The position numbers were made by a program, and so were the translations under genes. From Acidimicrobiia bacterium (lineage in GTDB: Bacteria > Actinomycetota > Acidimicrobiia > UBA2766), in contig JADZDR010000091.1 in assembly GCA_020850945.1 (NCBI GenBank), positions 1 to 35,564 on the forward strand: DNA of 35,564 bases. The letters run 5' to 3'. The notes under the pieces are model-generated. The model saw nothing but the letters and a program-made list of their open reading frames with translations. It was not told where the DNA came from and ran no database searches. Shown piece after piece: positions 21,494 through 25,602 of the stretch; the stretch's first letter is position 1; each line of letters starts with the position of its first letter.

Positions 21494-22222
21494 TCAGCGC
21501 AGACGGTCGACGAGGTCGAGCAGCTCGGGGAGGCGCTGCACCTCGAAGTCCGGCTCCACACCCGGCCACTGCTTGGCGAGCCGCGTGTGCTTCCACACAC
21601 CCCGCATCCCGACCTGCTGCGCGCCCTTGACGTCGTCGAGCTGGCGGTCGCCGACCATGACGGCGGAGCGCGGGCCGGAGTCGAGCCGTTCGAGAGCGAG
21701 CTCGAAGATGCGGGGATGCGGCTTCATGTGCTCTTCCTCCGACGAATAGACGCGCACGTCGATGAAGGGTGCGAGACCGTCCCGCTCGAGGAAGTGCTCG
21801 TGCCACGCCTCCGGCCAGTGCGTGTTCGAGAGGAGACCGATGCGGATCCCGCGCTCGTGCAGGCCGGCCAGGGTCTCGACGGCCTCCGGGTCGTGACGCA
21901 CGTGCGGGGTCCACGTGTCGAGGTGGTGCAGGGCGGCCTCCTCGAGGACAGCCTCGGCCACGTCGATGCCGAGCTCACGCGACGCCGTCTGCATGATCTC
22001 GGACAGCGTGAAGGACCTGAAGTCGCGGGTGGTCCCCTCCTCCCACATGCGCCCCTCCACCTCGACGAGGCGGGCGACGAGCTCGTCGCAGCCCGCTCCC
22101 GTCTGTTCGGCGATGTGGGTTGCGGCCAGTCTCCACATGTCGACGACTTCGACTTCGGCCCAGATCGACAGCGTGCCGCCCCAGTCGAAGACAACGGTCT
22201 CGATCCGGTCTACTCCGCTCAT
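21494..22222 (-). CDS. HAD-superfamily hydrolase (downstream of a coupled pair)
   Basis: 242 residues. Motif I is VVFDWGGTLS (nucleophile Asp; the usual second Asp is Gly), motif II GLLSNTHW, motif III MKPHPRIFELAL, motif IV MVGDRQLDDVKGA. A helical cap lies between motifs I and II. HAD enzymes with this layout are mostly phosphatases or haloacid-dehalogenase-like. The Gly in place of the acid/base Asp makes a standard phosphatase less certain. The start overlaps the stop of the upstream HAD gene (ATGA). Substrate unknown. Confidence 0.8.
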   Translation of the reverse strand: MSGVDRIETVVFDWGGTLSIWAEVEVVDMWRLAATHIAEQTGAGCDELVARLVEVEGRMWEEGTTRDFRSFTLSEIMQTASRELGIDVAEAVLEEAALHHLDTWTPHVRHDPEAVETLAGLHERGIRIGLLSNTHWPEAWHEHFLERDGLAPFIDVRVYSSEEEHMKPHPRIFELALERLDSGPRSAVMVGDRQLDDVKGAQQVGMRGVWKHTRLAKQWPGVEPDFEVQRLPELLDLVDRLR

Positions 22223-22947
22223 GAGTACCCCAGGACAGCCAAGAGATCCTCGTGCGAACTGACCACAACATCGGCGTCCGGATGCTCACTGTCATCGTCG
22301 TTGTGCAGGTTGATCCGCACTGTCTGCATACCGAGAGCGCGTGCTCCTGCCACATCGGTTCGCTTCAGGTCACCAACATGTACAGCATCGTCGGGAGCTG
22401 TGCCCAAGCCTTCGAGCGTTCTCGAAAAGACGAACGGGTGTGGTTTGGGAACTCCCATCTCATCGGAGAATGTCGTGACCTCGAAGTAGTCGAGGAGGCC
22501 GGTTCTGGCCAATATCATGCGCAGTGTCGAGCCGGGCGAGTACCCCGTGTCGCAGATGAGGCCGATCCGCACCCCCTCGCGGCGGAGTGCCCGCAGGGTC
22601 TCGTCCACACCGGGGAGGGGGAGAACGCGCCGCTCGAGGGACTGCACGGCGAGAGCACGCGCGAGGGAACCACGAACCGGCACACCGGGGGCGCCGACGA
22701 ACTCGAGGATCCACCCGGCCATGTCGTGGGGGGTCGGTGCGACCTGCGCCTCCCAGTTCACGTCGAATCGGTCCCATGTCCGCCTCAGCACGTCGGCGGC
22801 CAGGTCTTCGTCCACAGGCATGCCTGCGGCGTGGGCGGCCTCGCAGACGATCTCGATGCGGCGTGTATGCGCGGCATCCGGGTCGGTTTCGTAGATGACG
22901 GTGCTCCAGCAGTCGAACGTGACCGCACGCGGTCTTTCCAGCAGCAT
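22219..22947 (-). CDS. HAD-superfamily hydrolase (upstream of a coupled pair)
   Basis: 242 residues from ATG 22947; the frame is open further upstream. Motif I is VTFDCWSTVIYE (Asp nucleophile, Trp-Ser in place of the usual xD or YG), motif II GLICDTGYSPG, motif III GVPKPHPFVF, motif IV HVGDLKRTDVAGA. The C terminus is an acidic stretch with NLHNDDDSEHPDADVVV. It overlaps the next HAD gene by four bases, so the two are translationally coupled. They are the same length but differ at motif I, so they are probably an old duplication with distinct substrates. CAGACT lies six bases before the ATG, as in the NDH-2 gene. Confidence 0.8.
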   Translation of the reverse strand: MLLERPRAVTFDCWSTVIYETDPDAAHTRRIEIVCEAAHAAGMPVDEDLAADVLRRTWDRFDVNWEAQVAPTPHDMAGWILEFVGAPGVPVRGSLARALAVQSLERRVLPLPGVDETLRALRREGVRIGLICDTGYSPGSTLRMILARTGLLDYFEVTTFSDEMGVPKPHPFVFSRTLEGLGTAPDDAVHVGDLKRTDVAGARALGMQTVRINLHNDDDSEHPDADVVVSSHEDLLAVLGYS

Positions 22948-23040: not shown

Positions 23041-23631
23041 ATGGACATCCACCACCTCTGCAAGGCGCCCCTGGACCTCGACGCGGTCGCGGCGTTCCTC
23101 GACTCCCTGCACCACGAGGGGCGGGTGGTGGCATGCCGCTCGCTCACGGGCCAGGAGCAGGCGCGTCTCTTCGAAGCCGCCGAGGGATATCGCAAGACCA
23201 CCGTCGAGGACATCGTCCCGGCGAGCGTCGCCCCTCTCGTGCCTGTGCCTCACTGGGGAAAGAACTCGCTTCCCGCCTTCACCGTCTTCCAGAAGGTGTT
23301 CTGCCGCCCGGACGACACCGCGGCCCGCGACGCAGGGGAGCTGTGGGGGTACAACGAGTTCGGGCTCAAGGCGTTCACGGGTCCCGGCTACTACGTCGCG
23401 TACAACCTTCCCGACGGGGAGGTCCTCGTCGACTACACGCGTATTCCCGGGGGACGAGCACCCGGCTGGCCTCGGGTCATTCCCAACTCGCGTCGCCTCG
23501 GCCGGTTCATCTACTACGGCACCCAGGACACGCTACGCGGTGTGAGCGAGCACGTCACGATCGGGCGGGCCGCCCGCGATGGCGAGTGGATGCCGAACTG
23601 GTTCGTGCTCGTGCGCCAGGACCCTGCCTGA
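23041..23631 (+). CDS. Conserved-looking protein of unknown function
   Basis: 196 residues from ATG 23041. I do not recognise a family with confidence. It is soluble, without a signal peptide, and rich in aromatic and Gly residues in the second half: LWGYNEFGLKAFTGPGYYVA, VLVDYTRIP, RAPGWPRVIPNSRRLGRFIY, and GVSEHVTIGRA. That pattern suggests a compact beta-rich ligand-binding fold, possibly of a fatty-acid/lipid-binding type. Codon use matches its neighbours, so nothing suggests transfer. It is divergent from the HAD pair (93-base gap) and is followed by two tandem hairpins before the convergent subtilase gene. Confidence 0.6.
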   Translation: MDIHHLCKAPLDLDAVAAFLDSLHHEGRVVACRSLTGQEQARLFEAAEGYRKTTVEDIVPASVAPLVPVPHWGKNSLPAFTVFQKVFCRPDDTAARDAGELWGYNEFGLKAFTGPGYYVAYNLPDGEVLVDYTRIPGGRAPGWPRVIPNSRRLGRFIYYGTQDTLRGVSEHVTIGRAARDGEWMPNWFVLVRQDPA

Positions 23632-23648
23632 CCCGAGCACCCCCCCAC

Positions 23649-23695
23649 ACGTGGGCGTACTCAACCACGACATACGTGGTTGGATACGCCCAGGT
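23649..23695. repeat. Hairpin copy 1 of a tandem 61-bp repeat (imperfect)
   Basis: Two 21-base arms (23649-23669 and 23675-23695) flank a five-base loop, ACATA. The left arm is identical to that of copy 2; the right arm has three mismatches. It starts 17 bases after the stop of the upstream gene and could act as a terminator. The loop sequence is identical in both copies. Confidence 0.9.
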
Positions 23696-23709
23696 AACAA
23701 GATCCACCC

Positions 23710-23756
23710 ACGTGGGCGTACTCAACCACGACATACGTGGTTGAGTACGCCCACGT
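23710..23756. repeat. Hairpin copy 2: perfect 21-bp inverted repeat
   Basis: Arms at 23710-23730 and 23736-23756 are exact reverse complements, separated by ACATA. The unit begins 61 bases after copy 1. It ends 25 bases beyond the subtilase stop (minus strand), so both convergent genes could use it as a bidirectional terminator. There is no T-tract. Confidence 0.95.
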
Positions 23757-23781
23757 AATGAGAAATGCCACGCGGCACGGT

Positions 23782-25470
23782 TCAGCCTGCGCGCACGACG
23801 AGGTGACCGGCAGGGTCGATGCCGTCGGCCACGACGACTCCACCGACTTCGAGGCGGATCCTGTCCCCCGCCGGCGTGTCGACGAGGAGCGCACGCCATG
23901 TGACCTGGCGGAGCCCGCCGGGTCCGACACGGAAACCCCTGCCCGAGAGCGTCGCACCCGACATCGACGTGCCGGGAGCCCGCATCGCCATCACGGCGAT
24001 GAGCCGGTCCTGGCCGAGATCGAATCGGAGAGAGCCGACGCCGGCCAAGCCGAGGAAGTCGAACCATCCGGCGCTAACCGTCGCGCCCCCGACACTGGCC
24101 CTTCCACTCAACGCCTGCACCTGCCATACGAGCGGGTCCTCGGGCGCGGCATCCCAGTCGTCGACGAAGCCGTCGTCGTCGAGGTCTCCGTCGTCAGCCG
24201 GCTCGTAGGCGAGGGCCGCCGCCGCATCGACCCGTCCCATCCCCGTCTCGCGATCCCTCCCCGGCGTCGCCACGTCCATCGCCGTGTTGAGCAGTGCCGC
24301 CCGCACCCGCCCCGCACTCCAGTCCGGATGCGCGCTGCGCACCAGAGCTGCCACCCCCGCCACGTGGGGTGTCGCCATCGACGTGCCGCTGTAGGCGGCG
24401 ACCGCGTCCGGAGCCCCCTCCGCCGCGGGCGGGGCGACCGGACCGAGCACCCCCGTTCCCGGTGCGGCGATGTCGACTGCGTCGTTGAACTGGCTGAACC
24501 AGGCACGATCTCCCGTTCCCGTCTCGAGAGCTGCAACGGACAGGACCGAGGGGAAGCTCGCCGGATACGAGTACTGAGCCTTGCCGGAGTTCCCGGCCGC
24601 AGCCACGACGACGACGTCGTGTGCCGCGGCGTAGTTGACGGCATCCCGCCACGGGGGCAGAGGCACGGGACCGCCCAGACTCATGTTGACGACCTCGGCC
24701 CCATCGTTGGCAGCGTCGACGAGCCCGCTGACCAGGTCACCCACCCAGCAGAACCGCCCCTGGCAGGTCTTGTAGACGTAGATCGGCGATGTCGGCGAGA
24801 TACCGGCGATCCCGGCCGAGTTGTCGGCCACGGCTGCCGCTGTCCCGGCCACGTGCGTGCCGTGCGAGATGTCGTCCGTGGCGTGGTTGAAGCAGTTGAC
24901 CGGGTCGTAGAGGGGGTTGGGAGGGTAGGACTTGCAGATCGGGACCTTGGACGCGAAGGGTTGGAACTCGACGTGGTCGGGATCGATCCCCGAATCGAGC
25001 ACGGCGATCGGCGCTCCGTCGTATGGGCCGCCCGCCTCGAATCCACCCGCACCCGGGTAGGCGTCCCAGGCGGCAGCGGCACCGATGTCGGTGAGGTTCT
25101 GCATGTCGGGGAACAGCGGGTCGTCCGGAACTGCCTGCAGCGAGACGACCTCGTCCCGCCCCGTCCAGATCACGGCCGGATTCGCCGCGAGCGCTCTCAC
25201 CTCACGACGATCCGCCTCGATGATCACCGTCGCGATCTCGGGCACACGGCGCACCACCCGGCTCGCGGGGATGCCGGCGACGCGAAGTGACACGTCGCGA
25301 AGCAATAGCGGGGTTGCGCGTGAGAAGACGACGAGGGTTCGCTCCCGCGCCCCGACCGCAGGGCTGTCCGGGCGGGCGGCGAGGGCAGGCCCACCGACGA
25401 CCGCGCCTGCGACCACCAGCCATGCACACCATGTCGCCAGCATCGCGATGCCGACACGCCGCCACCGCAT
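23782..25470 (-). CDS. Secreted subtilisin-like serine protease (S8)
   Basis: 562 residues from ATG 25470 (GGGAGG ten bases upstream); ATG 25509 is possible but lacks a site. Signal peptide about 1-32, then an I9-like propeptide (about 45-112). The S8 domain follows with D159 (IAVLDSGID), H203 (SHGTHVAGT), N294 (AAAGNSG, oxyanion hole) and S364 (YSGTSMATPHVAG), all present. An acidic DGDLDDDGFVDDWD stretch after the protease domain looks like a thrombospondin type 3/EF-type calcium loop. It is followed by a beta-rich C-terminal domain of about 115 residues. Exported, probably self-processed. Convergent with the unknown gene at 23041, with the two hairpins between. Confidence 0.92.
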   Translation of the reverse strand: MRWRRVGIAMLATWCAWLVVAGAVVGGPALAARPDSPAVGARERTLVVFSRATPLLLRDVSLRVAGIPASRVVRRVPEIATVIIEADRREVRALAANPAVIWTGRDEVVSLQAVPDDPLFPDMQNLTDIGAAAAWDAYPGAGGFEAGGPYDGAPIAVLDSGIDPDHVEFQPFASKVPICKSYPPNPLYDPVNCFNHATDDISHGTHVAGTAAAVADNSAGIAGISPTSPIYVYKTCQGRFCWVGDLVSGLVDAANDGAEVVNMSLGGPVPLPPWRDAVNYAAAHDVVVVAAAGNSGKAQYSYPASFPSVLSVAALETGTGDRAWFSQFNDAVDIAAPGTGVLGPVAPPAAEGAPDAVAAYSGTSMATPHVAGVAALVRSAHPDWSAGRVRAALLNTAMDVATPGRDRETGMGRVDAAAALAYEPADDGDLDDDGFVDDWDAAPEDPLVWQVQALSGRASVGGATVSAGWFDFLGLAGVGSLRFDLGQDRLIAVMAMRAPGTSMSGATLSGRGFRVGPGGLRQVTWRALLVDTPAGDRIRLEVGGVVVADGIDPAGHLVVRAG

Positions 25471-25602
25471 CAGCTCAGACCTCCCAGTTCGGAGAACTCC
25501 TTCGACCATGAGGATTCTCTGTGGACCGGCAAGCGTCCTGCCCGCCCTCGATCGCTACGCTGGAAACGCCCCGACGGCGAGTCCAGGAGTTGAACCCACG
25601 AG

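Follow-up and report, generated by a model that had tools for sequence, protein, structure and literature searches.

The two tandem palindromes examined here belong to a family of elements that are always 47 bp long, lie just past stop codons, differ in sequence from species to species as dialects do, and show no conservation of pairing between their arms. Sequence comparisons suggest that this is probably a REPIN-like palindrome family, devoid of a RAYT transposase and maintained largely by vertical descent, whose members are putative double-stranded protein-binding sites arranged in helical register.

Two palindromes in a convergent gap

In the window (the entire stretch of 35,564 nucleotides that was analyzed), the palindromes and their neighbors are arranged as follows.

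23041..23631, strand +: upstream convergent gene that matches no Pfam family; 17 bp separate its stop from copy 1
23649..23695, no strand assigned: 47-bp element, copy 1, whose right arm carries three changes
23696..23709, no strand assigned: 14-bp spacer, aacaagatccaccc, which makes the period 61 bp
23710..23756, no strand assigned: 47-bp element, copy 2, with perfect 21-bp arms and the center ACATA
23782..25509, strand −: subtilase gene (Peptidase_S8); 25 bp separate its stop from copy 2

Gene boundaries come from our own codon-usage caller, which produced plausible genes throughout the window. The subtilase was identified by its match to PF00082 (E 8e-54). Elsewhere in the window (21494–22947), two adjoining genes encode HAD-superfamily hydrolases of about equal length (242 aa each) and may have arisen by tandem duplication.

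The original prediction of two nearly identical 47-bp palindromes with a 61-bp period in a 150-bp convergent gap was confirmed in its coordinates. The copies start 61 bp apart, and the gap (23632–23781) extends from the stop of the + strand gene to that of the − strand subtilase. Copy 2 is, as described, a perfect inverted repeat with 21-bp arms around the 5-nt center ACATA, and the three positions that distinguish copy 1 from it all fall in the right arm. The length of the perfect stem, to which the prediction attached weight, is real in copy 2 but exceptional in the family: only 4 of the 61 measured copies in the source genome, copy 2 included, have perfect arms. A 17-nt arm sequence matched the window five times, four matches being the copies' own arms, compared with 0.15 expected from dinucleotide shuffles. 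Neither an Rfam scan of the window nor a blast search with the array against phages and plasmids returned a match.

A dispersed family of fixed length

According to the original prediction, many dispersed copies would speak for a mobile palindromic element. The unit is indeed not unique in the source genome (G000, 3.91 Mb). The arm pattern had 153 matches genome-wide against 19 for a reversed control, and a gapped outer-arm pattern that allowed a range of lengths found 52 places, with a length of exactly 47 bp among the matches listed. A covariance model search detected about 65 clear copies, and our own scan yielded 65 dispersed copies, each exactly 47 bp, grouped into 42 loci, of which 21 hold one copy, 19 two and 2 three. 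Isolated half-sites were not in excess over chance in this genome.

We then looked at relatives using a cross-genome pattern of fixed length 47, ACGTGGG-N33-CCCACGT. It detected 37 copies in G001, which belongs to the same genus as the source genome, and 149 in G003, which belongs to the same taxonomic family, whereas the whole genome of G002, another member of that family, contained 0 copies. The remaining 292 genomes of the class had 0 or 1 match each. No similar palindrome family was found in 382 kb of G002 either. G+C makes up only some 54% of the G002 stretches that were read. A scan of 84,980 species genomes and IMG/VR, which used the G000 ends as its pattern and would therefore miss other dialects, returned 15 outer-arm matches; on inspection the inner sequence was unrelated in all of them.

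The inner sequence is specific to each species. The arm reads ACGTGGGCGTA-CTC-AACCAC in G000, ACGTGGGCGGATCCAGACAC in G001 and ACGTGGGGACG in G003, where the inner half is different. Almost every copy has complementary outer arms (positions 1–11), and both arms change together between species, with changes at positions 8–11 occurring on both sides. Mismatches between the arms are concentrated at positions 12–14 and 16–17 in all three species.

Arrays lie past gene ends

Convergent gaps hold 15 of the arrays of the source genome, tandem gaps 19 and divergent gaps 4, an enrichment of convergent gaps (Fisher p 0.0003) and a depletion of divergent ones (p 0.0025); like all array statistics given here, these values are uncorrected for shared ancestry of the sites. 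The median distance to the nearest stop is 21, 21 and 11 bp in G000, G001 and G003, respectively. Within tandem gaps, arrays are closer to the preceding stop than to the next start (Wilcoxon p 0.001, 0.07 and 0.016 in the same order). Among 37 tandem arrays, element and genes point the same way in 18 (10/19, 3/11 and 5/7). The genes beside arrays showed no functional enrichment and are ordinary housekeeping genes.

Several individual neighborhoods are worth recording. At locus L052 of the source genome (contig C32, 4980–6114), an extra DUF559 (endonuclease-like) gene lies between two element arrays, while its ortholog in G001 (C516, L221) has one array without the DUF559 gene; in G003, array L245 (2501–2609) adjoins an AbiEi_4-DUF559 gene. 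Open frames exceeding 1,600 aa start or end next to arrays at L044 (5157–9998) and L048 (5031–10001). At L208 of G001 (C280, about 2530–2590), a GC-rich hairpin (GCCTCGCCGGCGGAGCCGGCGAGGC) beside the 47-bp element is a more usual terminator candidate.

Tandem copies keep helical phase

Across the three species, per-array spacings fall at 61–63 bp in 40 cases, at 71–73 bp in seven, and at 83 and 94 bp in one each; none of the arrays with at least two copies has a spacing of 64–70 bp. The nine longer spacings follow a 10.5-bp phase closely (R = 0.94, simulated p 5e-6). Copies and spacers within one array are near-duplicates, and in clear cases the spacer consists of a suffix of the left flank joined to a prefix of the right flank. 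The split varies by locus (for example 9+7 at L045, 10+5 at L065, 3+12 at L070 and 11+4 at L147), and the arrays therefore look like independent duplications of equal total length. Tandem amplification is thus local, proceeding in units of 61–62 bp plus helical-turn increments. Selection for binding on the same face of the helix would be the simplest explanation of this spacing pattern, although a duplication mechanism that measures length could produce it without any selection for binding.

Read in this way, the element would act as double-stranded DNA, a pair of half-sites of about 20 bp, and a candidate dimeric or oligomeric protein would engage neighboring copies on the same helix face. 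It might act at gene ends, for example through a DNA-bridging, topological or transcription-roadblock site. The dialect could shift when the specificity of the putative protein changes, or through genome-wide recopying. Among the original proposals, that of a site for a dimeric regulator is favored by the helical phasing. That the outer 11 bp are symmetric is compatible with a dimeric protein site and with a structural stem alike, and the co-changing complementary outer arms would also be seen in a structural hairpin.

Site history and the question of mobility

In G001, the two convergent genes of the window locus are the same, but only about 10 bp separate their stops and there is no element. 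Within a 14-kb syntenic segment, G000 has two arrays that G001 lacks, and G001 has one that G000 lacks. Five other sites with orthologous neighbor genes are occupied in both genomes (L031–L218, L040–L161, L041–L208, L043–L209 and L052–L221). They amount to 5 of 38 arrays, against a chance expectation of roughly 0.5 by our own estimate, which assumes about 2,500 gene-end sites. The copies at these sites are no more alike than others: inner identity between orthologs is 0.41–0.52, compared with 0.49 for non-orthologous cross-species pairs and about 0.75 within a species. Ortholog copies thus match the dialect of their own genome, which means either that inherited sites were rewritten or that independent insertion prefers the same sites. 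By eye, L031 and L218 also have in common a decayed end motif adjoining the array, which favors inheritance of that site.

These observations bear on the strongest competing explanation, a miniature REPIN- or MITE-like element moved by a non-RAYT transposase, having no host function and tolerated at gene ends. Dispersal, element-free orthologous sites and the small number of shared ones would all be accounted for, species-wide dialects are expected if master copies re-disperse, and known REPs are distributed likewise in genomes (PMC3733652). However, searches of G000–G003 for Y1_Tnp/RAYT (PF01797) gave no match at E ≤ 0.01, while positive controls were matched (the drafts are 87–98% complete). 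Single copies have inverted ends but no consistent direct repeat, as a target-site duplication would leave, was seen by eye; half-sites on their own are not above chance; and no separated arm pair was noticed among the arm matches listed. Such an element would also give no reason for helical phasing. We consider this explanation unlikely, if still deserving attention. The original suggestion of a REP/MITE-like mobile palindrome therefore holds as to form, with many dispersed, intergenic and tandem copies and an element-free ortholog site in the sister species, but the RAYT/Y1 transposase that would go with it was not found in the four genomes.

Within the preferred reading of double-stranded binding sites, a more specific version can be offered only tentatively. 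The family may be a binding-site network that is rewritten at inherited, fixed positions as the specificity of the candidate protein changes, with tandem phase under selection: a REP-like system in which a new type of partner would replace RAYT.

Pairing does not support a hairpin

Were the arms selected to pair as a hairpin, native arms should pair better than arms swapped between copies. Swapping did not weaken pairing in G000 or G001, where exchanged arms equaled the native ones or did slightly better, and in G003 the native combination was the less stably folded one in 200 of 200 trials. As native arms are no better paired than swapped ones, selection for hairpin pairing is not supported. 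Covariation between the arms in G000 was likewise equal to that of shuffles, lending a hairpin no support.

Pairing, orientation and the rarity of U-tracts together speak against both an RNA hairpin and an intrinsic terminator. In particular, bidirectional terminators that lack U-tracts and have spread by copying appear improbable. They would be in keeping with the closeness to stop codons, the preference for convergent gaps and a folded energy near −30 kcal/mol, and a bound protein or a stable stem may cause termination incidentally. However, a U-tract (a 6-nt stretch within the first 12 nt that contains at least 4 T) was present in just 9 of 170 flanks and missing in 161, pairing is not conserved and in G003 the arms are even anti-matched, the two stops at the orthologous junction in G001 are only about 10 bp apart and have no element between them, and there are only about 42 loci in a 3.9-Mb genome. 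Nor would helical phasing between copies be expected from RNA termination. Two of the original proposals, the structured small RNA and the tandem bidirectional terminator, are therefore not supported: conservation of pairing stops at the outer arms that the copies share, orientation is random with respect to genes, U-tracts are absent, and the junction in the sister species is element-free.

Least probable is a single-stranded DNA or RNA hairpin with a conserved internal loop recognized by a nuclease or RNA-binding protein: the mismatch clusters at positions 12–14 and 16–17, recurrent in three species, would fit bulged single-stranded recognition, as would the asymmetry of the element (median orientation log-likelihood ratio 6.6–18), but arrays have no orientation bias relative to genes, Rfam offers no match, mismatch types in G000 are not consistently wobble on one strand, and helical phasing is left without explanation.

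Relation to known palindrome families

E. coli BIMEs are arrays of palindromic units at the 3′ ends of genes, for which DNA binding by gyrase and IHF has been reported, and they alternate REP types with set linkers. The present arrays resemble them in being palindromic and in their location at gene 3′ ends, but consist of one element repeated head to tail with locus-specific spacers.

The REPs of the GTAG and CGTC groups are 20–40 bp hairpins with an unpaired tag at one end, CGTC stems being 8–9 bp; they are found downstream of ORFs in gaps of the convergent and unidirectional kinds, often with less than 20 bp between stop and REP, and CGTC REPs have no dedicated transposase (PMC3733652). Our family shares the placement past ORF ends in such gaps and, with CGTC REPs, the missing dedicated transposase. 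It differs in its 47-bp length, its 21-bp arms and the absence of a GTAG or CGTC unpaired tag; the bases flanking the 47-mer are not constant from copy to copy or between species, being in G000 mostly C at the left end and G/A at the right end, and in G003 G and C.

REPINs, described in P. fluorescens SBW25 and E. coli, are inverted REP doublets associated with a RAYT transposase (PMC3116915). Like them, the copies in G000 are dispersed extragenic inverted doublets of high copy number. The short inverted arm pair, the lineage-specific sequence and ordered clusters of tandem, near-identical units, flanks included, are further points of likeness, whereas the constant 47 bp, the lack of RAYT/Y1 in four genomes and of a GTAG tag, and unit spacing locked to 61–62 bp plus helical turns set the present elements apart (PMC3116915). 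The family works like a REPIN population, yet is outside both the RAYT–REPIN and the tagged REP families because two defining features, the Y1/RAYT gene and the GTAG/CGTC tag, fail. What role REP-type palindromes play, and how they are copied without RAYT, are questions on which the family in G000, G001 and G003 bears: it comprises three species with three dialects, both shared and unshared sites, and a phasing signature that would point to a double-stranded DNA-binding partner, which can be searched for directly by pull-down and by comparing the carriers with the non-carrier G002.
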